Assembly: GCA_003697105.1 (NCBI GenBank)
Contig: RFFQ01000048.1
Location: forward strand, 1 to 18,434
Direction: 5' to 3'
Length of the DNA stretch: 18,434 nucleotides
DNA from: Gemmatimonadota bacterium
GTDB lineage: Bacteria; 4572-55; J002
Below are positions 94 to 18,434 of this stretch, in pieces. The position numbers and the translations under genes are program-made. Positions within the stretch are counted from its first letter, which is position 1. Every line of letters starts with the position of its first letter. The notes under the pieces are model-generated. The model ran no database searches, was not told where the DNA came from, and saw only the letters and a list, made by a program, of their open reading frames with translations.

Positions 94-3000
94 ATGGCGC
101 ATCTAACCGAAAACGCCATCGAACAGATGGCATTGGAACAATTGCAAACGCTGGGTTGGCAGATCGCCTTCGGGCCGGACATCGCCCCGGATGGGGATCG
201 ACCGGAACGGGAGACCTACGGCGAGGTGGTGCTGAAAAAACGGCTGCGGGAGGCGCTGGCGCGCATCAATCCTACCCTGCCGGAGGCGGCCATCGAGGAG
301 GCTTTACGCCAGGTGCTCACCCCGGATAGCCCGGCGCTGATCGAAAACAACCGCCGGTTCCACCGCATGCTTACCGATGGGGTGGATGTCTCTTGGATGG
401 GGCCGGAAGGGGAGCGGCACGGCAAGGTGTGGCTGCTCGACCTTGAGAACCCGGAGAACAACGACTGGCTTGCGGTCAATCAGTTCACCGTGATCGAGAA
501 CAAGCGCGAGCGCAGGCCGGATATCGTGCTCTTTATCAACGGCCTGCCGCTGGTGGTCATCGAGCTGAAGAACCCGGGGGCCGAACAGGCCACGCTGCTG
601 ACGGCGTTCAAGCAGTTGCAAACATACAAGCAAGATATCCCGTCGCTCTTTGCGTACAACGAAGTACTGGTGCTCTCCGACGGCATGCAGGCGCGCTTCG
701 GCACGCTGACGTCCGGCTGGGACCGGTTTATGCCCTGGCGTATGATTGACGGCACCGATCTCTACCGGGAGCCGGGCAACGAAAAGCAGAGCGAAGGCAT
801 GCTGCAGCCCGGCATGGAGACCCTGATCCGCGGCGTGTTCGAGCCGCGGCGCTTCCTGGACTACGTGATCAACTTCATCACCTTCGAGCAGGCGGAGGAG
901 GGCACGGCGGGCATCGCCAAGAAGGCGGCGGGGTATCACCAGTACCACGCGGTCAACCAGGCGCTTCGTTCCACACTGCTTGCCTGCGGCATCGAGGCGG
1001 ATGCGCAAGCGCTCTACGCACGGTTTCAGGAGGCCGAGGCAGCCGATCCCTTTGCGGTTCGCGAGCCGGAAGCCGCGTACCATGCGCAGCTCGGCGACCG
1101 GCGAGCCGGTGTCATCTGGCATACGCAGGGCTCGGGCAAGAGCCTCTCCATGGTCTTTTACGCCGGCAAGGTGATCCGTCATCCGGCCATGCAAAATCCC
1201 ACCATCGTTGTTATCACCGACCGCAACGACCTGGACAACCAGCTCTTCGGTACCTTTGCGGCGAACCGGCGGGTGCTGCGGCAAACGCCGGTGCAGGCGG
1301 AAAGCCGTGCGCATTTGCAGGAGCTGTTGCAGGTGGCCTCCGGCGGTGTGATTTTCACGACGATCCAAAAGTTTTTTCCTCAGAACACGGGCGATGCCTA
1401 TCCGCTGCTTTCTGAGCGCAGCAACATCGTGGTGATTGCCGACGAGGCGCACCGCAGCCAGTACGACTTCATCGACGGCTTCGCCCGCCACATGCGCGAC
1501 GCCCTGCCCAACGCCTCGTTCATCGGCTTCACCGGCACGCCCATCGAGAAGGAGGACAGGAACACCCGCGCGGTCTTCGGCGACTACATCTCCATCTACG
1601 ACATCCAGCGCGCCGTCGAGGACGGCGCGACCGTGCCCATCTACTACGAGAGTCGCCTTGCCAGGATCGAGCTCGATGAGGCAGAGAAGCCGCGCTTGGA
1701 CGAAGCGTTCGAGGAGATCGCCGAGGCCGAGGAGGATGCACTCCGGCGCGAGCGGATGAAGAGCAAGTGGGCGTCTCTGGAAGCCCTGGTGGGCGCCGAG
1801 AAGCGTATCCGGCTCGTTGCGGAAGACCTGGTGGCTCACTGGGAGCGGCGGCGTGAGGCGATGCTGGGCAAGAGCCTGATCGTCTGCATGAGCCGCCGCA
1901 TCTGCGTGGAGATGTCCAAGGCCATCACTGCGCTTCGCCCAGACTGGCACAGCGACGACGACGCCAAGGGCAGGATCAAGGTGGTGATGACCGGCTCGGC
2001 GTCCGATCCGCCCGACTGGCAGCCGCACGTGCGCAACAAGCAGCGGCGAGATTTCCTGGCACGGCGCTTGAAGGATCCCGAAGACGAGCTGGAACTGGTG
2101 ATCGTGCGCGATATGTGGCTCACGGGGTTCGACGCGCCGCCGCTGCACACGATGTACATCGATAAGCCCATGAGCGGCCACAACCTGATGCAGGCCATCG
2201 CCCGCGTAAACCGCGTGTTTCGCGACAAGCCCGGCGGGTTGGTCGTGGACTATCTGGGCATCGCCGACTCACTCAAGAAAGCTCTTGCGGTCTACGCAGA
2301 CAGCGGCGGCCGGGGCAAGGCCGCCATCGACCAGGCCGAGGCGGTGGCGGTCATGAAGGAGAAGTACGAGGTGGTCTGCGGCATCCTGCACGGATTCGAC
2401 TACCGGCGGCTGCTTGTCGCTGCCCCAGAAACCCGCCTGCAGGGCATCGCCGAGGCGATGGACTTCATTCTGGCGCAGGCGGACGGCAAGAAGCGCTACC
2501 TCCAGGCCGTGGCGGCGCTCTCCAAGGCCTTTGCCCTGGCGGTGCCGCACGAGGAGGCGCTCGCCATCCGCGACGCGGTGGGCCTTTTCCAGGAGATCAG
2601 GGCATCCCTGATCAAGGCCACGGTGAGTTCGGCGAAGCGCACGCCGGAGGAGATCGAGGCGGCGGTGCGGCAACTTGTTTCGGAGGCGGTCTCCGGCCGC
2701 GAGGTGGTGGACATCTTATCCGCGGCGGGTCTAGATAAGCCAGATATCTCCATCCTTTCTGATGAGTTCCTCGCGGAAGTCCGGGCGATTCCTCAGAAGA
2801 ACCTGGCTGTCGAGACACTGAAAAGGCTCCTTGAGGACGAAATACGGGTGCGCCTGCGCAAGAACGTTGTGCAATCGCGCGCCTTCTCGGAGCTACTGGA
2901 GCAGGCGCTCATTAAGTATCACAACCGCGCCATCGAGGCGGCGCAAGTGATCGAAGAACTCATCGCCATTGCCAAGCAGATGCGGGAGGCCGCGCAGCGC

Positions 3001-3303
3001 GGCGAGACGCTCGGGCTGTCTGAAGACGAAGCGGCCTTCTACGATGTGCTGGCTTCCAATGACAGCGCGGTGCAGGTCCTGGGGGACGAGATGCTCAAGA
3101 AGATCGCCCAGGAGTTGGTGGAACGGGTGCGCAGGAGTGTCTCGGTGGATTGGAGCAAACGGGAGAATGCCCGGGCGCAGCTTCGGGTGCTGGTCAAACG
3201 CATTCTGCGCAAGTACGGCTATCCGCCGGACAAACAGGAGCAGGCCACCGAGCTTGTCTTGGAACAGACGGAGGTTCTGTGCGAGGACTGGGTGACGGCG
3301 TGA
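94..3303 (+). CDS. hsdR: Type I restriction-modification system motor/endonuclease subunit HsdR
   Basis: This is a complete 1069-aa HsdR, the subunit that gives a type I restriction complex its ATP-driven DNA translocation and cleavage. The N-terminal PD-(D/E)xK nuclease shows D143 and E157-L-K159, preceded by an NQFTVIENK segment and followed by a Q-x-x-x-Y segment (KQLQTY). The SF2 helicase core has Walker A TQGSGKS (K349), DEAH (450-453), FTGTP (479-483), a TGFDAP segment (677-682) and motif VI Q700/R704/R707. The C-terminal helical part resembles the DUF3387 region ([19 protein letters not shown]). The start is supported by AGAAGG 7 nt upstream. Length and motifs are normal and nothing looks inactivated. 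The gene is clearly GC-richer than everything after 3600, which suggests horizontal acquisition. HsdM and HsdS are not visible; only 93 bases lie upstream. Some methylase-linked helicases share this core, but the nuclease plus DUF3387 architecture favours HsdR. Confidence 0.96.
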
Positions 3304-5225: not shown

Positions 5226-6275
5226 TCAATAAAGATCAGCATCACCCATTGTATAAAACCAGTTTGCCGTCATCCATTCTAAGGTAATATCGGGGCGGAA
5301 GGGTAACGCCACTAATTTATATTCGGTCTCTTCCCGGTGAAAACCGTGTCCGGTAAACACCGCTTCAAATTGGGGGTAATGGGGTGGTAGCCACGTTTCT
5401 AAGCGCTCACTACCAGCAATTCGGGCGGAATTTTCTATCCCCCGGAACAGCACCCGTAGCACTACGGCATCTGCCGGGTCAAACAGCCAATCCACAAGCA
5501 ACCCATTTTTCTGGGCGGGATAATTCGCTCGGAAAATTGCCCATCCCAACAGTTCGCCTGTCGATTTTTCAAACACACCTATCGGTAAATACTCCACTAC
5601 CGGACAGTCACAGTAGCGCCAATTTAAGTATGTCGCATCACGAATAATACCCAACCGGATATGATGTTGGACCCGGTTCCACAGGGTATCGGCACGGGCA
5701 TCAAATCGATCTATTTTACGGATATCATAGCGCCGTTTTTGGGTTTTGAAGAAGAGGCGCTCCGGCAGGGAAAGCTGTTCCCCAGCCGGAATCCGCTTGA
5801 CCATTGCCTGTACCTGATGGATAAATTGGTACGGGTACTTAAATCGTTTTTTAGCGATCCGGTACGCGCGGGAGTTGGGAAATCCGTAACAAAAGTGGTT
5901 CAATGGGCCCCGTGCCACACCGGCATAATCCACAAGCTGTTCAAATAACGGTTTTTTGGTCAGGCTTTTGCGATACTTCGGGTCAACCGCCGTGTCCACG
6001 ATTTGGCTGGAGATAATCGTTTGCTCCTGATAACGGTAGCGAGCGCAAACCGTAGCATACTGTGCCGCCATTTTTCCATCGGGCGCTTGCGCGATGAGGG
6101 TTTGATTTCCAGCGGGATTTTCGCCAAACTTCCATTGCCAATGTGCCATAGTACGTTCCTGCTGGAAGACACGCCGGTACAATGCTACCAACTCCGCCTC
6201 ATCGCCGGGACGGTACGGGCGCAAGGTGATACCACCCGCAATTTGCAAAGGATCATCTTGGAGAACAATTGACAT
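5226..6275 (-). CDS. Double-GNAT-fold N-acetyltransferase family protein
   Basis: A 349-aa protein whose first half is a GNAT-type acyltransferase. ITLRPYRPGDEAELVALYRRVF is the usual first strand-helix; a WKFGENPAG segment and the MAAQYATV strand follow. The second half (from about residue 150) looks like another GNAT-like domain: LLGWAIFRA, then a strand-helix segment ending in GFHREETEYKL, the usual GNAT C-terminal 'GF...' strand. Two-domain GNATs of this size are widespread and often of unknown specificity. The expected role is transfer of an acyl group from acyl-CoA to an amine; the acceptor is unknown. CGGAG stands only 2 nt before the ATG, close for a ribosome site, so translation may be modest. 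It is the first gene of a two-gene unit and is divergent from the STAS gene. Confidence 0.8.
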   Translation of the reverse strand: MSIVLQDDPLQIAGGITLRPYRPGDEAELVALYRRVFQQERTMAHWQWKFGENPAGNQTLIAQAPDGKMAAQYATVCARYRYQEQTIISSQIVDTAVDPKYRKSLTKKPLFEQLVDYAGVARGPLNHFCYGFPNSRAYRIAKKRFKYPYQFIHQVQAMVKRIPAGEQLSLPERLFFKTQKRRYDIRKIDRFDARADTLWNRVQHHIRLGIIRDATYLNWRYCDCPVVEYLPIGVFEKSTGELLGWAIFRANYPAQKNGLLVDWLFDPADAVVLRVLFRGIENSARIAGSERLETWLPPHYPQFEAVFTGHGFHREETEYKLVALPFRPDITLEWMTANWFYTMGDADLY

Positions 6276-6296
6276 AACTCCGAATCCAAATTTTGC

Positions 6297-6326
6297 TTGA
6301 CAGAGTGATAAAATCTCGTTTAGAAT
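6297..6326 (+). promoter_or_regulatory. Sigma70-type promoter of the STAS gene
   Basis: TTGACA (6297-6302, 6/6) is separated by 18 nt from TAGAAT (6321-6326, 5/6). Transcription should begin near 6333, leaving about 40 nt of leader that contains AGGAAG (6361-6366) before the ATG at 6374. This location argues against the upstream in-frame starts TTG 6293 and ATG 6335. Confidence 0.65.
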
Positions 6327-6333
6327 GGCTCAA
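6305..6333 (-). promoter_or_regulatory. Candidate promoter of the GNAT-hypothetical unit
   Basis: On the minus strand TTGAGC (6333-6328, 4/6) lies 17 nt before TATCAC (6310-6305, 4/6). Transcription would start near 6298, giving a leader of about 22 nt before the acetyltransferase ATG at 6275. Both boxes are moderate. The element overlaps the STAS promoter on the other strand. Confidence 0.35.
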
Positions 6334-6373
6334 TATGACCTTGTTTATCGACCTTGATTCAGGAAGCCCCCCC

Positions 6374-6769
6374 ATGCAACTCATTGAAACCCTAACAGCT
6401 CCAGAAGCCACAATTCAGGCAAAACAACCGGTAGATGATGCCGCCACACTGGTACTTGAATTTTCCGGAAGTTTGAACACCATCACTACCGGGATTTTTT
6501 TTCTGGAAAACGCCGGGTTTTTCACCAGTTGGCTGAATCAAAAATTGAAAAAAACCGTAATCGATTTACGCCAAGTGGAGTATCTCAATTCCATGGCGAT
6601 TGGGCATATCACCCAATATTGCATCGCGTTGGACAAAGAGCAGATCATTGTTGAGGTTGTGGTGATCAAGGGTTCAGAAGTCCATAGTATTTTGCAATTT
6701 TGCGGCTTTTTTGATCTGCCGGGAATTCGCCTTCAGGAAATGGAAGCCCTCCCTGAAACGCAACCTTAA
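6374..6769 (+). CDS. STAS-domain protein (anti-sigma factor antagonist-like)
   Basis: A 131-aa single-domain protein. After a short N-terminal tail it has the STAS pattern: a first strand LVLEFSGSLN, then VIDLRQVEYLNSMAIGHI, which matches the 'DLs.v..iDSsglg.L' segment of SpoIIAA-like antagonists. In those proteins a Ser/Thr in the 'DS' position is phosphorylated by an anti-sigma kinase; here the equivalent is probably S in YLNSMAIG, with Asn in place of the usual Asp. It would act in the cytosol as a partner-switching regulator. No cognate RsbW-type kinase or sigma factor is in the window. The chosen ATG has AGGAAG 7 nt upstream and lies downstream of the promoter at 6297-6326. Longer in-frame extensions (from 6293 or 6335) would begin within or at the start of the predicted transcript. 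Its stop overlaps that of the converging gene. Confidence 0.7.
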   Translation: MQLIETLTAPEATIQAKQPVDDAATLVLEFSGSLNTITTGIFFLENAGFFTSWLNQKLKKTVIDLRQVEYLNSMAIGHITQYCIALDKEQIIVEVVVIKGSEVHSILQFCGFFDLPGIRLQEMEALPETQP

Positions 6770-7875
6770 TCTGCATCCTTTACACACCGGAACCCAACCA
6801 CAAAATCCCGATAATCCACTGGAACGCCCTGCCGGGATGCCACAATTGCCAAATGATAATTATTGAGATACGAGCCACCGCGCAATACTCGTAAGGGAGA
6901 TTCCTCTAAAGGTATGTGTGGATTTCGGGTATCTGCTCGTTTCAGATAATCCGGTAGATAGGCATCCGCACACCACTCCCACAAATTTCCGGCTAAATCC
7001 TCCACCCCATACGGGCTGGCCCCTTTCGGAAACGTCCCCACCGGCGCAAGCCCCAGATACGTATCATCCACATCACTTGTGTTTGCCCGATCCGGTTCAA
7101 ATGTACTGCCCCACGGGAAGAGTTGAATGTGGTCCCCGCGTGCCGCTTTTTCCCACTCTGCCTCGGTCGGTAAGCGCTTACCCGCCCACGCGGCAAAGGC
7201 TTGTGCCCCGGCAAACGTAACATACACCACCGGATAGTTTTCATATCCTTTTCGGACAACATATTCCGCGCCGGAAGGATAAATCCGGGTATAGGTTTTA
7301 TCATATTTGATCAATTGATCAATCGTATCAGGCTTGACCGCATTGAGAAAACGGGCAAAATCCGCATTGGTAACTTCATATTTATCGATGTAAAACGCAT
7401 CCACATATACCCGTTTCGCCGGTGTTTGGTTCGCAAACCATTCCCGCTGAAACGTCTCATCACGCGCCAACAGAGAATCAATTTGGTCTTCCCGTAAACC
7501 CATGGTAAACTCACCCGCCGGAATGTAGATCATCTCCACATCTGTTTTTTCGTCACCCTGCATCTCACGATGTCGCAATTGTTCCAAATCGATTTTGACT
7601 CGTGTCGTCTGCCCGGGTTCGACACGCACCATCTGGCTGTGAGCCGGATAATTCGCTTTATTCAGTTGCAAAAAATAAAGTCCCGGGACGATGTCCTGCA
7701 GTTGAAGTGGTGTTTCACCTTTGAGATGACCTTGAAACTGAACGGTTGCCCCAGAAGGTATCGACTCGATGACCACCTGACCGGGTTCAATTTTGGGGGA
7801 CATTGTCCCCCGCCAGTAGATTAATCCCCCTACAACGAGGGCAAGAACAGCAATGGTGATTAGCACCTGTTTCAT
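6766..7875 (-). CDS. Membrane-anchored PEGA + SUMF1/formylglycine-generating-enzyme-like protein
   Basis: A 369-aa protein with one N-terminal membrane segment (about residues 4-22) and no lipobox, so most of it should face the periplasm or exterior. A PEGA domain follows (about 33-95; IPSGATVQFQG, GETPLQL). The FGE-sulfatase/SUMF1 fold then runs to the C-terminus: MIYIPAGEFTMG, YIDKYEVTNADFARFL, RLPTEAEWEKAARG, FPWG, GNLWEWCADAY, VLRGGSY, VGFRC. Genuine formylglycine-generating enzymes carry active-site cysteines shortly after GGSY (pattern GGSYxCxxSYC). Here the residues are NNYHLAIVASR with no Cys, so sulfatase activation is unlikely. A binding, structural or other non-FGE role fits better, as for many SUMF1-like proteins. 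The weak GGAAAA upstream is the only ribosome-site candidate. A good promoter at 7926-7954 opposes the MCP promoter. Confidence 0.88.
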   Translation of the reverse strand: MKQVLITIAVLALVVGGLIYWRGTMSPKIEPGQVVIESIPSGATVQFQGHLKGETPLQLQDIVPGLYFLQLNKANYPAHSQMVRVEPGQTTRVKIDLEQLRHREMQGDEKTDVEMIYIPAGEFTMGLREDQIDSLLARDETFQREWFANQTPAKRVYVDAFYIDKYEVTNADFARFLNAVKPDTIDQLIKYDKTYTRIYPSGAEYVVRKGYENYPVVYVTFAGAQAFAAWAGKRLPTEAEWEKAARGDHIQLFPWGSTFEPDRANTSDVDDTYLGLAPVGTFPKGASPYGVEDLAGNLWEWCADAYLPDYLKRADTRNPHIPLEESPLRVLRGGSYLNNYHLAIVASRQGVPVDYRDFVVGFRCVKDAD

Positions 7876-9692: not shown

Positions 9693-12600
9693 TTACTGCA
9701 ACAGCACCATCCGGCGGGTTTGGGAAAACTCACCCGCTTCCAAGCGATAAAAATAGATACCACTCGCGACCGGCTGCCCCTCATCCGTGGTGCCCTCCCA
9801 ACTTACCGTGTATGACCCGGCGGTTTGGGACTGCTGAACTAACGTCCGCACCAACCGTCCACTACTATCGTATATCTTCACGCTGACCGGACTATCCTGC
9901 GGGAGTTGGTAGCGGATACTCGTCCGTGGGTTGAACGGGTTGGGCACGTTTTGAGATACAGCAAAATGAGCCGGTATCATGGTACTATTGGCAACTGGGG
10001 TTACTCCGGTGGAGGGGTCTTCCAGCCAATCTAATACTTCCTGCAAAACCTCCTCACGGGTGCTAAATTGAGGCTGGGCATTGTTGATCGCTTCTAAGCC
10101 AAATCCAAAATAGACCAGTTGGTAGTCCCCATTATAGTTGATTGCCCCTATTGCCTGATCGGGACCATGATAATAAAATGTTGCTTCCGCCCCGTTGATG
10201 GGTTCAATTTGGTTGGGGAACACCTGATTATTGGCACCGCCGTCTGCCCCAGAGATACGAATCAGTAGGTCATGGCTGATGGGATGCGCCGGGATACCTC
10301 TCAATACCGGCAAGCGATACTGTGCCACAACAAATTCGGTATGAAGGTAACTGGTATAAAAATCAAGTCCATTTTCATGTTCTACCAGATCAACACCAAT
10401 CCCTTGCCCGGTGAGGAACAGTTTCCCCCCTTGATCCAGATACGCCGCCAGCATCTCCTGATCGGCGGCGGTCAAGGTTTCCTCAAACTCGCTGCCGGTG
10501 TACCAAATGATCAGGTCATACAACCGTGCTTCTTCCAACGTCAACATGTCGCGGTCTAAATCGCGCCGTTCCGCCAAGACGTCAATATTATCCAACGCGC
10601 TCATATAGTATTGTTCCAAATCATCTCCGCCGTCATCATCCACCAATAAAATAGAGGGTCTGCCGATGTAGGTTTCCACGGTGAAAGCGCGGGATTCGTT
10701 GAAATTATCGCCTTCAATGGTGATGGTGAAAAACACCCGTTGGACATCCGCTTCAGGGTCAATAAAAAATTCAAAGGGGTTATCCACATTATCAACTTGT
10801 GCCGCAGTCTCAATGGTGCCCATCTCAATTTCGGCGGTGAGGAGTTCGATATCCGGATTTTCGGTAGAGAGGGTCGCCCGGGCATTTTCCACAATCAACC
10901 AGTTATCATTTTGCACCGCAAAGATCAACTGACCGGTTTCGCCGGCATCCAAGCGACCGTCATCATTGCCATCGGCATCATCGAAAAGCCAATTAATGAG
11001 GGTCAACATGGGGCGAGTTCCATCGGGACCGATACCGTGACGGTTGAAGGCGGTAAAAATCGCCTCGGTGTTGGGGGTGCCGTCGGAGACATCCCCATTA
11101 TCATCATCGGCAACCAAGACCTCGATCATATATTCCTCAAAGGCGACGCAGTCATCATCAGGGTCATCTGGCGTACCCCACCGGGCAAATTGGTGCAATG
11201 TATCTGCTCGTGAGCCGATCATTTGCCGCAAATCCCACATCGCGCCGCCAATCACTTGTCCACTAAAATGAACTTCCTGATTACCGGCAATTTCGCAAAT
11301 CAAGTTATTATCCAGATTGCGCAGGTGGGTACCGATCCCATCAAAGCCACGTCCCACAAGGGGTTGCTCTTCCATGAAACACCCTACCACGTCGGCAAGA
11401 CCTTCATGCATTGCCCCGTTGGTCATCCCCCACGGTGCCCCGGCTTCCTGATATACTTTATGATTGATGCCGTGACCGTACTCGTGATACACCACATTGG
11501 GAATCAGGGCGGTGTTGGGACAGCCATTGCCTGCCCGGAAAAAATTGATACCGGTACCGTTCCAAAAGGCGTTACAGGTATTGTCGATATTTACCGCACA
11601 CGGCATGGAATAATCCAAATAGGTAATTGAGGTATCGATGGTATTGATCCATTGGTACACTTTGTTGGTATGGTAAAAACCGTTTCGTTCCGCTTCATGG
11701 GAATTTTCATTGGTCCATTCGATGTTCACCGTGTCGCCCGGAGTCACTTCTACGGAGATAGCGGCATCCGCCCCATCTTGACGGTTGACATCCACAAAAT
11801 GACCCCGCAGTTGGGCATTGAGCACCCCGGATTCTTCGAGTTCCACCTCATAAAAACCGCTTTCATCGGTGTAGGTGGGGCTACCACTGATGGTAAGGCG
11901 CTCATCGCGGAACGGTTGTACCTCATCTGGGTCGGTGGGAAGTACCATTTTCACCCCGCCACTTACTGTACCGGAAACGGTATCGTAGCGTACTTGATTA
12001 AATCGCCAAATGATCTCACCACTGTGGGCATCCACAAAGGTGACCCAATTGCCGAGGGGTTGCTGGGTCATCATTTGCACTTCATACACCAGATGATACT
12101 GCATTCCGGCAGCTTGTTTCACCGGCAAAATCCAAAGATGACCACTTTCGGTGACAAAATCGGTTTGCGGGTCAAAGGCGAGGCCGGCGCGGGCGGCAAT
12201 TTCCGCTTCGGGCACACTCAGGTGCGGTGTGGTATCCACGGTGATCGCTGGATGGTAATCCGAACCGAACATCATCACCCGAGCATCCGGGGCGAGCCTT
12301 AACTCAATTTCGGAGTGAATCACCGGGATACCCTGATAGACCTGCTGGTACCCGACATACCAGACATTCCGTTTGCGAAATGCTTTGGTTTGCCGAATGT
12401 GATCGGTATCCACGTGGAGCACATCCGCATGATCCTGCAAAAATTGGCGGCTGGCGGCATCCACATTGGTTGCCGTGATAGCTGAAAAACCAGCAATGGG
12501 GATGCTCGGTCCAATCGCCCGGTGGGGATTCTCTGTAGCCACATTCCAGCGGTAAACCTGCCAATCCCCGTGCTGTTGGCGAAAAGTCTGCCATTGGGGA

Positions 12601-12743
12601 GACTGGTTCAAGGCGCGAATTTGAGCTGGATCAGGTGTCTCACAACACTCTCGCTGAGATAACGGGATTTCGCCTTCCGCAGCCACTAGCTGGGTTGCGT
12701 AAAAGCTGGCCAGCATAACCAAAACAATCAACAAACGGGACAT
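9693..12743 (-). CDS. Secreted thermolysin/fungalysin-like zinc metallopeptidase with C-terminal sorting domain
   Basis: A 1016-aa secreted peptidase. Domains: signal peptide (about 1-22), FTP/PepSY-type propeptide (about 60-230), and a catalytic domain with zinc motif HEYGH (420-424) plus the third ligand Glu447 in GAMHEGLADVVG, the gluzincin pattern of the M4/M36 families. An EF-hand-like loop DADGNDDGRLDAGE lies at about 586-600, with a beta-sandwich region after it. A GATase/ThuA-like alpha-beta domain (about 698-910) starts ILLVDDDGG. The last ~85 residues are a FlgD-Ig-like sorting domain (VPNPFNP, VKIYDSSGRLVRTL, GIYFYRLEAG, QTRRMVLLQ). The start chosen is the ATG at 12743: AAGGAGG (12759-12753) lies 9 nt before it but touches the upstream in-frame ATG at 12752. 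All catalytic residues are present, so it is probably an active exoprotease for protein scavenging or surface maturation. M4 versus M36 is not settled. Confidence 0.9.
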   Translation of the reverse strand: MSRLLIVLVMLASFYATQLVAAEGEIPLSQRECCETPDPAQIRALNQSPQWQTFRQQHGDWQVYRWNVATENPHRAIGPSIPIAGFSAITATNVDAASRQFLQDHADVLHVDTDHIRQTKAFRKRNVWYVGYQQVYQGIPVIHSEIELRLAPDARVMMFGSDYHPAITVDTTPHLSVPEAEIAARAGLAFDPQTDFVTESGHLWILPVKQAAGMQYHLVYEVQMMTQQPLGNWVTFVDAHSGEIIWRFNQVRYDTVSGTVSGGVKMVLPTDPDEVQPFRDERLTISGSPTYTDESGFYEVELEESGVLNAQLRGHFVDVNRQDGADAAISVEVTPGDTVNIEWTNENSHEAERNGFYHTNKVYQWINTIDTSITYLDYSMPCAVNIDNTCNAFWNGTGINFFRAGNGCPNTALIPNVVYHEYGHGINHKVYQEAGAPWGMTNGAMHEGLADVVGCFMEEQPLVGRGFDGIGTHLRNLDNNLICEIAGNQEVHFSGQVIGGAMWDLRQMIGSRADTLHQFARWGTPDDPDDDCVAFEEYMIEVLVADDDNGDVSDGTPNTEAIFTAFNRHGIGPDGTRPMLTLINWLFDDADGNDDGRLDAGETGQLIFAVQNDNWLIVENARATLSTENPDIELLTAEIEMGTIETAAQVDNVDNPFEFFIDPEADVQRVFFTITIEGDNFNESRAFTVETYIGRPSILLVDDDGGDDLEQYYMSALDNIDVLAERRDLDRDMLTLEEARLYDLIIWYTGSEFEETLTAADQEMLAAYLDQGGKLFLTGQGIGVDLVEHENGLDFYTSYLHTEFVVAQYRLPVLRGIPAHPISHDLLIRISGADGGANNQVFPNQIEPINGAEATFYYHGPDQAIGAINYNGDYQLVYFGFGLEAINNAQPQFSTREEVLQEVLDWLEDPSTGVTPVANSTMIPAHFAVSQNVPNPFNPRTSIRYQLPQDSPVSVKIYDSSGRLVRTLVQQSQTAGSYTVSWEGTTDEGQPVASGIYFYRLEAGEFSQTRRMVLLQ

Positions 12744-12940
12744 ATGATTCATCCTCCTTAAATATTATATAGAAGTAACGTAACGGTCGGCGTCGCCGTC
12801 ACATCGGAATTGCGTGGAAGTGTGATAGTGTCTCGATGGAGAGTCAAAGCGGGGCGTAAATCAAAACACTGTGTGGGAGTGCGTATAGTTAATATGGGGA
12901 ATAAGCGTCTGTCAATCTCTTTTTCCTGCCGAATGCACAT
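12744..12940. other. Intergenic region upstream of the metallopeptidase
   Basis: This ~200-base stretch separates the giant repeat gene's terminator from the metallopeptidase start. It holds the strong ribosome site AAGGAGG (12759-12753). On the minus strand there is a perfect TTGACA (12915-12910), but no good -10 box at 16-18 nt from it. A TATAAT on the minus strand (12769-12764) is too close to the ribosome site to make sense as a promoter. A 63-codon minus-strand ORF here shows no protein-like features. The metallopeptidase promoter should lie here but I cannot place it confidently. Confidence 0.4.
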
Positions 12941-12982
12941 AAAAAACACCCGGCCCCGTCGTCAGTTGCCGGGGTCGGGTGT
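12941..12982 (-). terminator. Rho-independent terminator of the giant repeat-protein gene
   Basis: Read on the minus strand, ACACCCGACCCCG (12982-12970) pairs with CGGGGCCGGGTGT (12958-12946) over 13 bp with one G-U pair across an 11-nt loop, and is followed at once by TTTTTT. It sits 28 nt after the stop codon at 13011. It separates this transcript from the metallopeptidase gene. Confidence 0.88.
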
Positions 12983-13010: not shown

Positions 13011-16000
13011 TTATTTGACAATGGTCAAGCGGTCGATCTTTTCCTGTGTACTTCCGCTGGTAGTTAATTCAATGCGGTAAACATACAACCCACTGGCGAT
13101 GCCGCTCACCTCCCACGGGGTTTCATGCCAGCGTTGGCCGGTGATCTGCCCTTCGTATTCCCAAATGAGGTCACCCAGCACGTCAAACACCGTGATGGAA
13201 ACCGACCCCGCCGCATCTTCACAAAAATAGCGGAAAATCACATGATTCGGGGCAGGGGTGCCGTCTTCCATTACCGCTGCCGCTAAGGGGGCGGGGTTGG
13301 GATAGACATAGGAGTCGTCAAAACTATCGGTCAAGAGGCTGATGGTAACCTCTTGCAAGCCGCCATCTCCTACGGCGGTATCGGCGCCGAAACCCCCGTC
13401 GCCATCGGTATCTGCCGCATAGACCCGGTACACAAACCGGTCTTCCGGCGTGAGGGGGGGTAACGGGCGTACCGTGCGGTACGTTTCCATCACTTGGGCA
13501 ATACCATTGACGGTCACTTTTTCCATTGCCAATTCCTGGTGATCTTCCCTTAACTCACCATCGGTATCCCAATGAAGAACAACACTTGCCGGATCGATGC
13601 CCGTATCATCGGAGATGTCACACTGAATGAAAAATTCTTGAAACGCCGGAATTTCTGCCGGCTGGAAGTTGCTAAATTGTGGCGGACTGGAATCATCATC
13701 CAAAACGGTAACCGTCTGAAGGGCACTGATTCCGATCTGGCGGTCTTGATCCGAATCCTGATCCCGATCATTATCATAAGCAACAACCTGATAGACAAAA
13801 TCTTTGGGAGGTTGTCCGGGCAAGAGTTCGTCGGTGATAAAATCGACGGCTTCCATTGGGGTTCGCAGTCCGGAAATTGCCTTTGTACCCCGTGTGATAC
13901 CCGCTTTATGGCGGTCTGGAACCGGACTCATTGTAACCAGATTATAATCGAGGGTCAATTCCCCGTCATTATCCCACATCAGGTAAACACCCTGACCCTC
14001 AATACCGGTGTTATCATCGTAAATACCGGAGGCATCCTCAATCGTTACGGTGATATGGAATGGTTCGGTTTCGTTGACTTCAGCCGGAGCAAAATTGCGG
14101 AATACTGGCGGATCGGCGTCATCATCACCAATCGTCAGGAATTGCTCGGCGCTACTACCTTGCATTTGGTCTGCCGGATCGTTGTTATCGCGGTCGTCAT
14201 CGGTGGCATAAACGATGTACTTCACCATCCATCCGGCAGGGGCTGTGGGAACAGGGGTTGTGGTGCGATACTGGTCACCGGTATTCAGTGCCTCCATTGG
14301 GAAGGTACCGACATCATTAAAGGTTGATCCCCCATCGTTACTGATAAAGACCTGTGCCGAAGCCGTGCTAATCCCAGAGGGGTCGGTAATGACACAACGG
14401 ATATAAAAGTCGGTGGCATCATCAATTTGTAACGGGGCGAAGTCACTGAACACTGGCGGGGCGGCATCATCATCATTCAAGGTGATGGATTGGGTCGCGC
14501 TTATACCGGTTGTTGGGTCATCGGTATAACCGCCATCCATATCGTTATCGGTGGCTTCCACGCGATAGACAAACTCGGCGGAAATTGCTTGTGCCGGAAT
14601 CAAATCTACCGTGCGATACATATTATTTTCCACCCATTCCATCGCCATGGATTGGCTGTTTTCGTCCAATTCGCCATCATTATCCCAATAGAGCGTGGCG
14701 GCGGCAATTCCAGAGGGGTCCGTAATGGTGCAGGTGATGTAGAACGGTGCCGTATCTTCCACGCTGGCGGGCGCAAAATCGGCAAACTGGGGCGCATCGG
14801 TGTCATCATCGCTGAGCGTGATGGTTTGTATGGCGCTAATTCCCGGCATCCGGTCACTTGCCCGCCCCTGATCGGCATCATCATCAAAGGCAAATACCTG
14901 ATACACCAGATCGGCATTCAGTGCTTGCACCGGTAGGGGTTCATCACTGGCAAACGTATCGCCTTGCCAACGGGAAAGCTGAATTTCGTTCGCACCGTTG
15001 TTTAGGTTGCCGTCATTATCCCATAACAGGTAAACGCCTTGCCCCTCACTGCCGGAATCATCATCAAAAATACCCGACGCATCCGTGATATTGACACGGA
15101 TGGTAATTTCCTCTCCGTCCACGGCTTCCAACGGGGCAAAATTGCTGAAACTCGGCGGTGTGATGTCATCATCCGCCACGATAATGATTTGGGGTTCGCT
15201 AACCCCGGATGTCCGGTCGGCGTCATTTTGGTTATCAAAATCGTTGTCATTGGCTTCAATGGTAAATGTCAGGGTTTCGGCAAACTCCGTTAGAGTGATG
15301 GCTTCGGTCTGGTATAGACCGCTATTATCATCGAAGGTCATCGGATACCGGGTACCTTCCAATACCGCGACGGCTTCGTAAATACCGGATTCATCCTCAA
15401 TGCGGCATTCAACCATAAACGACTGGTTGTCTTCAATTGAAGTTGGGGCAAAATCAGAGAATGTTGGCGGTGTGGTATCGTCATCAACGACTTCAATGGA
15501 TTGAATATCACTGGTAGATGTTGTGCGGTCGTCTTCATTTTCCGCATCAAAATCGCCATCGGTGGCGATGACTTGATAGACAAAATCCACGCCCCACATC
15601 TGAGCCGGAATCGGGTTCGCCGTTTGGAACATTTCGGCACGTAAGGTCGCGCCGGCTTTGCTAACACGGCTCGAACGTCCGGGTGAGATGACCTCTAGCG
15701 GCACTTGATTGTAATCTTCGTCCAATTCACCATCATTATCCCAAATCAGATTGGCATCGTAAATACCGCTGGGATCGTCGATGGTAACAAAAATATCAAA
15801 ATCGTTGGCGTCGGTGACTTGTGCCGGTTCAAAATCGCTGTAAGTAGGACCTTCGGTATCATCATCTTCAATCCAAATCGATTGCTCGGCGCTGATCGAC
15901 TGGGTGCGGTCATCACTGCCGCTGTCGTTATCATCATCATAGGCATAGACACGGTAGGTCAGTGTCGAACCGGCGGGTTGTTGCGGGATCATCCGGTCAC

Positions 16001-18434
16001 TTTCAAATTGGTCACTATTGCCCACCCGGCTCATCTGGTATTCGGAGCCATCCCCTAGCACCAGATAAACGCCTTGCCCCTCACTGCCGCTATCGTCATC
16101 ATACACGCCGCTTTCATCGGTGATGGTACACCGGATCGTGAATGGGGCGCCGTCCAAGGTGGTGGTAGGGGCAAAATTGCTGAAGAGGGGACCATCACGG
16201 TCATCATCGTAAATGACAACTGCCTGAATCGCGCTAATCAATTGGCGGCGGTCTTGGGGTAGCCCGTTATCCGAATCATCATCAAAAGCATAAATTTGAT
16301 AGACAAAATCGGCATTCACATCTTGGCGCGGAATCGGATCAGCCGTGCGGAACGTCATTTCAATGAAGCGATTATGGTACACCCGGATCGGGTGGGCGAT
16401 GCGCCCACTACCACTACTGACACTCATGGAGACTTCGTTATAATCTTGCGAGAGTTCACCGTCGTTATCCCAGCGTAAGTAAACCGCGCTTTCATCAATG
16501 CCGGACTCATCATTGAGGGTAGCAAAAATGTAAAAATCACTGCCGTCATCCATTTCTTCTGGTTCGGTACTGACCAGCACTGGCGGATTGACATCGTCAT
16601 CCAAAATGGTAATACTGCGGATGTTGGAAACCGCCGAAAGAACGTCGCCGGGGTGATCCTGATCCCCATCCATGGCAAAAATCTGATAGACAAAGTTTGT
16701 ACCGGTGGGTTGGCTGGGGATGGGTGTCACCGTTACCCATGTATCACCGCTCTCTAATGCCAGATCCACGCGGAGACCGCCACCCGGTGTCCCGTCATCG
16801 TCCCACAAAATGTAAGCGTCGGAGATGCCGCTGGCATCGGTCAGCTCGACGGAAATATGAATCTCTTCATCATCAAACACTTGCGATGGTGTGGAATTGC
16901 CGATTACGGGAGGCTCTATATCATCATCCACAACCGTGATATTCTGCATGAAGGTCACCATTGTTTCCATATCCCCGGGATGGTCATTATCGGCATCGGT
17001 GGCATACACCCGAAAGACGACGTCTGCTCCGGTACGTTGGCGAGGTATTTGAGTAATGGTGCGATAGGTACTGCCGGAGAGCAAGACCAAATCCAATTGA
17101 TTGGCATCCTGCACCAGTTCACCATCGTTATCCCATTCTACATAGGCTTCGGATAAGCCGCTTTCATCGGTGATGTCTGCCGTGATATAGAATGGATCGC
17201 CATCGGTGACTTGCACCGGTAACATATTCGTAATGACCGGCGGTTCGGTATCATCATCACTGACCAAAATGGTCTGGATAGCGGATTCTGCCACCAATTG
17301 ATCATTTTCGTGATCCTGATCGCCATCGATTGCCGTCACCTGATAGACAAAATCCACCTCTGGGGCTTGGGCGGGAATTGGGGTCACCGTGCGATAGTTG
17401 AGGTCATCAATGGTGGAAAGATTGACCCGCGTACCGCCTTCAATAGTACCGTCATCATCCCAAATTAAAAACGCCTCATCAATACCGCTGGCATCGGTAA
17501 TTTGGCAGGTGATGGTGAACGCGGCATTGTCCAGCACAGCGGTTGGGGCAAAACTGCTAATTTCCGGAGGAGCGGCATCATCATCCTGTACAATCAGTGT
17601 CCGCAAATTGGAAAAGGACTCGCTTTCATCATCCGCATGGTCGGCGTCCGCATCCGTGGCATAAATACGAAATACGAATGCCGTACCTGCCGCTTGTGAC
17701 GGGATCAAACTAACAGTACGGTAGTGGTCACCGGTTTGCAACGCCATTTGCGTCACGCGGTAATTATCTTCCAGACTGCCGTCATTATCCCAGTGAACTT
17801 CCACCTGTTGGACACCGCTTTCATCGGTGACATCCGCTTCAATATGGAACGGGGCATTATCCTGCACACTGGTGGGCAAAATACCGGTAATGGTGGGACC
17901 CTGCGGGTCATCATCCAGCACCGTGATCGACTGCAACGCCGAAACGCCCAGCGTTCCATCCCCCGGATGGTCCGCATCGCCATCCACCGCATACACCTGA
18001 TAGACAAACGGTGTACCGGCCGGTTGGGCTAACATCTGATTTTCGGTCTGGTACACATCGTTGCCAATTAAGACCAGCTCGATTTCATTATAATCGGTTT
18101 GTAACTCGCCGTCGGTATCCCAACGCAAGTAGCTTTCCGCAATATCGTTTTCATCGGTGATGGTCACGCTGATATGGAAGTTCTGATCATCCGTGACCTG
18201 TGAGGGGGCAAAATTGCTGAACGTGGGGGGTGTACGATCATCATCAATAATGACCACGTTCTGCGGAGGCGAAATGGTCTGGAGCGGGTCGCCCGGAAAG
18301 TCATTATCGGCATCAACCGCAATAACGATATAGGCAAAGGGTGTTCCGGCGGCAAACGTACCAAAAGCGGTGGTGGAGTAGTAATTGATACCGTCGTCGG
18401 TTTCCAACGGTACCACCGTACCATCGGAGGGGTC
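13011..18434 (-). CDS. Giant acidic Ig-like tandem-repeat secreted protein (5' end off window)
   Basis: The frame is open through the right edge (DPSDGT precedes the first in-window GTG), so the N-terminus lies outside and the start is unknown; 1807 residues are visible. There are 14 complete repeats of 104-142 aa plus part of another. Each begins DDDxxPP and contains 'F.I...ItD.SGI..a.l.WDNDGEl', 'YrT...IPaQ' and 'fVYqvyA.D.D.D...D', ending in a beta strand before the next DDD. The many DxDxDG and DDD clusters suggest calcium-stabilised Ig-like beta-sandwiches. The last ~105 residues form a C-terminal sorting-type domain (VYPNPAP, ITVFDVLGDLIWEYEG, GLYVYRIELTTSG, LTIVK), so the protein is probably exported and held at the cell surface or released. 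An adhesin or filamentous surface spacer is my inference. No catalytic motif is seen. It is followed by its own terminator. Confidence 0.85.
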   Translation of the reverse strand, partial: DPSDGTVVPLETDDGINYYSTTAFGTFAAGTPFAYIVIAVDADNDFPGDPLQTISPPQNVVIIDDDRTPPTFSNFAPSQVTDDQNFHISVTITDENDIAESYLRWDTDGELQTDYNEIELVLIGNDVYQTENQMLAQPAGTPFVYQVYAVDGDADHPGDGTLGVSALQSITVLDDDPQGPTITGILPTSVQDNAPFHIEADVTDESGVQQVEVHWDNDGSLEDNYRVTQMALQTGDHYRTVSLIPSQAAGTAFVFRIYATDADADHADDESESFSNLRTLIVQDDDAAPPEISSFAPTAVLDNAAFTITCQITDASGIDEAFLIWDDDGTIEGGTRVNLSTIDDLNYRTVTPIPAQAPEVDFVYQVTAIDGDQDHENDQLVAESAIQTILVSDDDTEPPVITNMLPVQVTDGDPFYITADITDESGLSEAYVEWDNDGELVQDANQLDLVLLSGSTYRTITQIPRQRTGADVVFRVYATDADNDHPGDMETMVTFMQNITVVDDDIEPPVIGNSTPSQVFDDEEIHISVELTDASGISDAYILWDDDGTPGGGLRVDLALESGDTWVTVTPIPSQPTGTNFVYQIFAMDGDQDHPGDVLSAVSNIRSITILDDDVNPPVLVSTEPEEMDDGSDFYIFATLNDESGIDESAVYLRWDNDGELSQDYNEVSMSVSSGSGRIAHPIRVYHNRFIEMTFRTADPIPRQDVNADFVYQIYAFDDDSDNGLPQDRRQLISAIQAVVIYDDDRDGPLFSNFAPTTTLDGAPFTIRCTITDESGVYDDDSGSEGQGVYLVLGDGSEYQMSRVGNSDQFESDRMIPQQPAGSTLTYRVYAYDDDNDSGSDDRTQSISAEQSIWIEDDDTEGPTYSDFEPAQVTDANDFDIFVTIDDPSGIYDANLIWDNDGELDEDYNQVPLEVISPGRSSRVSKAGATLRAEMFQTANPIPAQMWGVDFVYQVIATDGDFDAENEDDRTTSTSDIQSIEVVDDDTTPPTFSDFAPTSIEDNQSFMVECRIEDESGIYEAVAVLEGTRYPMTFDDNSGLYQTEAITLTEFAETLTFTIEANDNDFDNQNDADRTSGVSEPQIIIVADDDITPPSFSNFAPLEAVDGEEITIRVNITDASGIFDDDSGSEGQGVYLLWDNDGNLNNGANEIQLSRWQGDTFASDEPLPVQALNADLVYQVFAFDDDADQGRASDRMPGISAIQTITLSDDDTDAPQFADFAPASVEDTAPFYITCTITDPSGIAAATLYWDNDGELDENSQSMAMEWVENNMYRTVDLIPAQAISAEFVYRVEATDNDMDGGYTDDPTTGISATQSITLNDDDAAPPVFSDFAPLQIDDATDFYIRCVITDPSGISTASAQVFISNDGGSTFNDVGTFPMEALNTGDQYRTTTPVPTAPAGWMVKYIVYATDDDRDNNDPADQMQGSSAEQFLTIGDDDADPPVFRNFAPAEVNETEPFHITVTIEDASGIYDDNTGIEGQGVYLMWDNDGELTLDYNLVTMSPVPDRHKAGITRGTKAISGLRTPMEAVDFITDELLPGQPPKDFVYQVVAYDNDRDQDSDQDRQIGISALQTVTVLDDDSSPPQFSNFQPAEIPAFQEFFIQCDISDDTGIDPASVVLHWDTDGELREDHQELAMEKVTVNGIAQVMETYRTVRPLPPLTPEDRFVYRVYAADTDGDGGFGADTAVGDGGLQEVTISLLTDSFDDSYVYPNPAPLAAAVMEDGTPAPNHVIFRYFCEDAAGSVSITVFDVLGDLIWEYEGQITGQRWHETPWEVSGIASGLYVYRIELTTSGSTQEKIDRLTIVK
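13014..13335 (-). other. C-terminal type IX-type / FlgD-Ig-like sorting domain
   Basis: The final ~105 residues of the repeat protein leave the repeat pattern and adopt the layout of secretion C-terminal domains: YPNPAP, a FRYFCEDAAGSVSITVFD strand pair, WEYEG, then SGLYVYRIEL and a closing LTIVK. Compared with the metallopeptidase's NPFNP domain it lacks the NPFNP signature and carries an extra loop (AVMEDGTPAPN). Assignment to a type IX-like route is by family resemblance only; no secretion genes are in the window. Confidence 0.6.
13336..18245 (-). repeat. Fourteen tandem ~330-nt coding repeats (Ig-like domains)
   Basis: The repeat boundary is the DDD codon triplet. Its minus-strand first base lies at 18245, 17915, 17585, 17258, 16928, 16601, 16208, 15866, 15485, 15173, 14810, 14474, 14126 and 13700; the end of repeat 14 near 13336 is approximate. 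The first five units are 330, 330, 327, 330 and 327 nt. Later ones vary from 312 to 426 nt because of inserts. Copies are clearly diverged at the DNA level, so this is an old expansion and not a recent slippage array. Confidence 0.85.

Follow-up and report, generated by a model that had tools for sequence, protein, structure and literature searches.

Calcium-clamped extender rods made of Ig-like domains are already known from the RTX adhesins exported by T1SS, whose extender domains are very different in sequence and yet carry Ca2+ in the linkers of all the tandem structures compared (PMC7493085). In MpAFP, the junction ligands are Asp104 and Glu106 of the linker, together with Asp191 and, via water, Asp142 of the next repeat (the last two being positions 87 and 38 of the 104-residue repeat), and every domain accounts for ~45 angstrom (4.5 nm) of the chain (PMC4083281); in SiiE, the type I site takes a single Asp from the domain before the junction and two from the domain after it (PMC5466336). 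Another giant surface protein, SprB of Flavobacterium johnsoniae, comprises 6,497 aa (PMC9870892) and measures about 200 nm (PMC12635249). The protein which is the focus of the present analysis is best explained, with a probability of about 0.66, as a T9SS-exported cell-surface rod, attached by its C-terminal end and made of Ca2+-clamped Ig-like domains.

The window, that is the whole stretch of 18,434 nucleotides analysed here, corresponds to a complete contig (C115); its minus strand, from 18434 to 13011, is an open frame running from the contig edge to the stop at 13011 and encoding the C-terminal 1807 residues of a giant repeat protein, the probable N-terminal half of which lies on a second contig of this genome, C196. 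All the features of this gene lie on the minus strand. A partial unit at the contig edge (18246–18434; model positions 53–113 of the unit HMM, 27 bits) is followed by 14 complete units, delimited by alignment and by the HMM (88–134 bits each) and starting at residues 64, 174, 284, 393, 503, 612, 743, 857, 984, 1088, 1209, 1321, 1437 and 1579: C1 (17916–18245), C2 (17586–17915), C3 (17259–17585), C4 (16929–17258), C5 (16602–16928), C6 (16209–16601), C7 (15867–16208), C8 (15486–15866), C9 (15174–15485), C10 (14811–15173), C11 (14475–14810), C12 (14127–14474), C13 (13701–14126) and the last one, C14 (13350–13700), whose HMM match extends to about 13341. Over the whole sequence, 200 shuffles of the window protein reached at most 6.3 bits, a control of composition only; since the HMM was built from these very units, independent support for the unit comes from its matches in other genomes. 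The preliminary description had counted at least 14 repeats between 13700 and 18434: the 14 are indeed there, the count being low with respect to the ~28 obtained together with C196, while the interval rightly contains repeats but cuts off the last unit and the sorting domain which follows it.

The 27 complete units of the protein (14 in the window and 13 on C196) are 104–142 aa long and share 24–53% pairwise identity (mean 36%). Adjacent units are not more alike than distant ones, and therefore a recent tandem duplication was rejected as the origin of the array. Three motifs had been attributed to every unit; the DDD linker (DED in one case) and the D.D.D...D segment are present in all of them, but the WDNDGE segment is not universal, its D43, D45 and G46 being kept in 78–85% of the own units. 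Considered as a W-D-x-D-G pattern, this C-D loop is found in about four fifths of the own units, C9 being one of those without it, and in nearly all relatives. Six own units display a longer B-C loop of the YDDDSGSEGQG type, the commonest form among the relatives read; in the window it occurs in C7 (with this very sequence), in C10 and in C13, which carries another long insertion. The tree is compatible with a single origin of all own units and also with more than one: in its best form it needs 4 changes, and strongly supported branches force only 1. The length of the F-G loop varies in blocks along the chain (window 13350–18434, C196 3–4600), being long in N1, short in N2–N6, long in N7–N11, short from N12 to C5 and long in C6–C14; these blocks might record block duplications or segments of the rod.

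The sorting domain expected at the end of the protein was recovered at 13014–13325, and both sequence and Foldseek assign it to the T9SS type. Scanned alone, this tail matches Por_Secre_tail with E 6.4e-6 and 26.8 bits against a Pfam cut-off of 27 bits, and stays below the cut-off of TIGR04183; it matches the tail region of NF052323, an NCBIfam T9SS family, with E 8e-9, and two paralogous sorting tails of its own genome, both above the TIGR04183 cut-off, with E 3e-8 and 4e-7. Its model (pLDDT 80.5, the first 20 residues being poor) has seven strands, the number given for T9SS C-terminal domains in PMC11285876. The best Foldseek match of the model is PorU, while by VIA PorU (Z 9.4) is tied with GH2 Ig-like domains, which reach a Z of 10.4, so that the class of the tail rests on sequence and on the Foldseek order and not on VIA. 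On these grounds, the tail is assigned to the T9SS type A-like sorting domains, as a divergent and weak member of the class. The genome itself encodes a T9SS machinery, with a SprA_N match, a PorU sortase at 650 bits against a 420-bit cut-off and members of the PorV family above cut-off (11 or more matches), and about 100 T9SS sorting tails are found in it; because of these SprA, PorU and PorV homologues and of the ~100 cargo tails, export of the giant protein by T9SS is likely.

According to the proposed mechanism, the protein of ~3,460 residues would be exported by Sec via its putative signal peptide and would then cross the outer membrane by T9SS via the C-terminal domain, this end staying attached so that the N-terminal module would be outermost; the ~28 Ig-like domains in series would form the shaft, probably stiffened by calcium, which, at ~4.5 nm per domain, would be ~0.1 micrometre long (0.12–0.13 at 28 domains). 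The likely function of such a rod would be to keep the N-terminal module at a distance from the cell, with a view to attachment or to contact between cells. Adhesion is the usual role of rods of this kind, and by analogy an adhesin role of the giant protein is plausible. Since no ligand-binding domain or tip was recognised by Pfam in the first 125 residues, some weight is left to a matrix or coat role, in which the same Ca2+-binding chain would be a released or surface-coating acidic polymer, belonging to a biofilm or surface-layer matrix or to a Ca2+- or mineral-binding coat, instead of a tip-bearing adhesin. The charge of the protein would suit such a polymer, amounting to about -558 net when the two halves (3,454 residues read) are added up; moreover, the sequence of the tail is compatible with either retention or release. 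No sequence feature points to lateral assembly, however, and the conserved aspartates are placed at the junctions between domains, as fits the stiffening of a single chain, so that the polymer is considered unlikely and the attached rod is preferred. The extreme acidity already reported for the chain turned out to be specific to the giant protein: the window half has a net charge of -287, 13.9% Asp and a pI of 4.05 (a pI shared by the combined protein), the eight other window genes checked having pI values of 4.4–9.2; an adaptation of the whole proteome to salt was rejected as its source, because the other window proteins are far less acidic.

With regard to the building block of the rod, the preliminary description had been unable to name its family and had proposed an Ig-like fold with clustered Asp sites, and both statements are supported. 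Searches with the full protein, the single units and the relatives gave only weak or isolated matches, no Pfam or NCBIfam model covering the unit and no named domain of known function matching it cleanly. Big_7 and DUF5707 of Pfam exceed their cut-offs for the whole protein via one stretch in unit C2; on single units they match 1 and 2 of 27, respectively, at E<=0.1, and none of the 13 relatives. When the PDB was searched by sequence with the profile of the own units, nothing but antibody constant regions came up; their best E was 2.5e-4 when several domains were summed, but no better than 7.9 per single domain among the alignments listed, and these matches were put down to general Ig resemblance or chance. 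The profile of the relatives found nothing in the PDB at E<=1. In a scan of named genomes with a profile from a 9-unit subset, 11 loci were identified in WOR-3/Stahlbacteria, Mcinerneyibacteriota, Zixibacteria, a genome labelled Planctomycetota (weakly) and unplaced bacteria; these relatives have one or two units per long secreted protein, and most of those read also possess other Ig-like domains and a T9SS-type tail. Among 241 genomes from a relatives sample, seven (this one included) match at E<=1e-8, with no array in the other matching genomes; the phylum of the source organism, a poorly sampled lineage, counts two genomes in the collection, the other having weak single matches only. The profiles of own and foreign units align over their full length with E 4.6e-43, eight Asp columns being common to both. 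Judged from these comparisons, the units constitute an undescribed Ig-like domain family missed by current Pfam and NCBIfam, for which a usable profile spanning several uncultured phyla is now at hand.

The fold was modelled by AlphaFold on units C3 and C4 jointly (22 alignment rows), with a mean pLDDT of 95.6 and a pTM of 0.77, the latter not fixing the angle between the domains; an Ig-like sandwich is confidently predicted, each domain with its own strands. The best PDB match by Foldseek is titin Z1Z2 (E 6.1e-9). By VIA, where rows within 1 of each other count as equal and a Z of around 8 may reflect no more than a common arrangement, the model was aligned to titin Z1Z2 (Z 10.4, rmsd 5.7, 179 residues aligned), to the FN3-like modules of C. 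thermocellum CbhA (Z 10.0, rmsd 11.5, 172 aligned), to protocadherin 10 (Z 8.9, rmsd 9.7, 192 aligned) and to cadherin-23 EC6-8 (Z 8.3, rmsd 9.9, 186 aligned).

The eight Asp columns, conserved at >=90% over 27 own and 21 foreign units, are D1–3, D31, D87, D89, D91 and D95, and all of them fall in the linker (1, 2, 3), in the B-C loop (31) or in the F-G loop (87, 89, 91, 95) of the model; with the 48 units mapped onto the C3 strands, neither the strands nor the remaining loops include an Asp column at >=90%, and the strands contain 3–21% D/E. In an Ig-like sandwich, the linker and the B-C and F-G loops are located at one and the same pole, at which the chain arrives from the domain before. By strand topology, the near-universal Asp columns of the predicted fold are thus clustered at one pole, beside the linker. 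By analogy with the ligand positions of SiiE and MpAFP, we infer that Ca2+ is bound at the inter-domain junctions: the DDD linker would close, together with D31 of the B-C loop and D87, D89, D91 and D95 of the F-G loop of the following domain, around at least one Ca2+, and this ion would lock neighbouring domains end to end in the manner known from SiiE, MpAFP and further RTX extender domains. The optional second acidic loop (WDNDGE, the C-D loop) would be at the other pole, where it may provide an additional site. It could be argued that the array is an ordinary structural spacer, flexible and free of Ca2+, in which the conserved Asp and Gly residues maintain the Ig-like fold (by turns and capping) or solubility; indeed, well conserved Asp/Asn-like residues which are not ligands are found in MhLap (PMC7493085). 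Such a spacer is distinctly improbable here, considering that the eight Asps are conserved in spite of the low identity between units and are restricted to the loops that provide the Ca2+ ligands of SiiE and MpAFP, that the strands are poor in D/E, and that the other proteins of the window do not approach this acidity. Junctions clamped by Ca2+ are thus the favoured reading of the conserved aspartates.

The N-terminus, which had been noted as missing from the window, was located by searching the same genome with the window protein: seven matches fall in one open frame of C196 (3–4943, minus strand). This frame starts with MNRKLWVCLGLLLGLLPVAGGTAGAQ, signal-peptide-like by eye, followed by ~90 residues that look fibronectin-III-like, also by eye; a Pfam scan of the first 125 residues gave no match at all. 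Thirteen complete units come next, and a partial 14th at the contig edge, covering model positions 1–35, is complementary to the partial unit of the window; the two are probably one split unit, about 14 model positions being missing between them. Although the contigs are not physically joined, the simplest reading is that of one gene of ~3,460 codons extending across both, with 27 units that are complete and one split between the contigs, hence ~28 in all. That C196 instead carries the beginning of one repeat protein and the window the final part of a second, with further units or a gene in between, is very doubtful. No sequence joins the two contigs, and whole units could be absent together with the missing model positions; a search of the genome, however, found no other such array, and a single open start and a single open end exist, each located at the edge of its contig, the orientations matching and the partial units being complementary. 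Upstream of the start of the giant gene, C196 encodes a protein with HAMP and a SpoIIE-type phosphatase domain (5801–7042, minus strand), beside a 4HBT thioesterase.

Directly downstream in the window and on the same strand (9693–12752, minus), a secreted thermolysin-like metalloprotease is encoded, with a HEYGH motif and only a weak match to Peptidase_M4 of Pfam; it has its own T9SS tail, above the TIGR04183 cut-off. A consensus scan between the two secreted-protein genes returned no promoter or terminator; a likely intrinsic terminator (12940–12982, minus strand) was spotted by eye and confirmed by folding to have a 12-pair stem of -23.3 kcal/mol, with six U behind it; it had escaped the scan because its 11-nt loop exceeds the limit of the latter. 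The rest of the window includes a protein that combines a PEGA and a formylglycine-generating-enzyme-like (FGE-sulfatase) domain and has a hydrophobic stretch at its N-terminus (6766–7875, minus strand), a STAS protein, a chemoreceptor and, at 94–3303 of the plus strand, a Type I restriction R subunit (HSDR_N, T1RH-like_C); with 61–64% GC against about 46–54% elsewhere in the window, the latter stretch looks recently acquired, and no S or M subunit was seen in the window.

As far as the known systems are concerned, the domain family is shared with proteins of WOR-3/Stahlbacteria, Zixibacteria and Mcinerneyibacteriota, which have one or two copies, mostly amid other Ig-like domains, and no array. 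Titin Z1Z2, protocadherin 10 and cadherin-23 EC6-8 are likewise end-to-end pairs of Ig-like or cadherin sandwiches, at 17–19% identity a match at the level of the fold only; Pfam, scanned with the window half and with single units, returned no cadherin family. SprB is likewise a very long, T9SS-exported surface adhesin, and demonstrates that T9SS adhesins of ~200 nm exist; it is, however, a type B substrate with a SprF carrier, whereas the tail described here is type A-like, and Pfam gave no match to the SprB repeat in the window half. SiiE of Salmonella enterica, with its 53 BIg domains, is also a giant Ig-like chain with an inter-domain Ca2+ site, but it is exported by T1SS, has fewer conserved Asps per junction than the eight observed here, and the PDB chains show no sequence match to the own units beyond the general Ig resemblance. 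MpAFP/MpIBP region II, MhLap and AhLap likewise consist of tandem Ig-like domains of ~100 residues, a feature of RTX extender adhesins which the unit HMM and the model reveal in the present protein as well, and the junction ligands of MpAFP, which belong to the linker and to positions 38 and 87 of the repeat that follows, are comparable to the linker, D31 and D87–95; those proteins are RTX/T1SS proteins with ligand-binding modules, and the repeats of MpAFP are identical, in contrast with a highest pairwise identity of 53% here. As to C-terminal RTX nonapeptides and a T1SS signal, no RTX family was listed when the window half was scanned against Pfam at E<=1; with this result and a T9SS-type C-terminus, the giant protein would work like an RTX adhesin without being one. 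A broader proposal, to which we assign even odds, is that the DDD-P / W-D-x-D-G / D-x-D-x-D-x3-D unit represents a calcium-clamped family present in the secreted proteins of several candidate phyla and expanded here to a homopolymer of ~28 units, a T9SS-exported calcium rod of separate origin from the T1SS RTX extenders with the same junction chemistry. If so, the same junction design would be found behind a T9SS-type tail, making it independent of the secretion route and offering a ready test of convergence; taken together, these comparisons identify the giant protein as the putative T9SS counterpart of the calcium-clamped extender adhesins, built from a previously undescribed Ig-like family.
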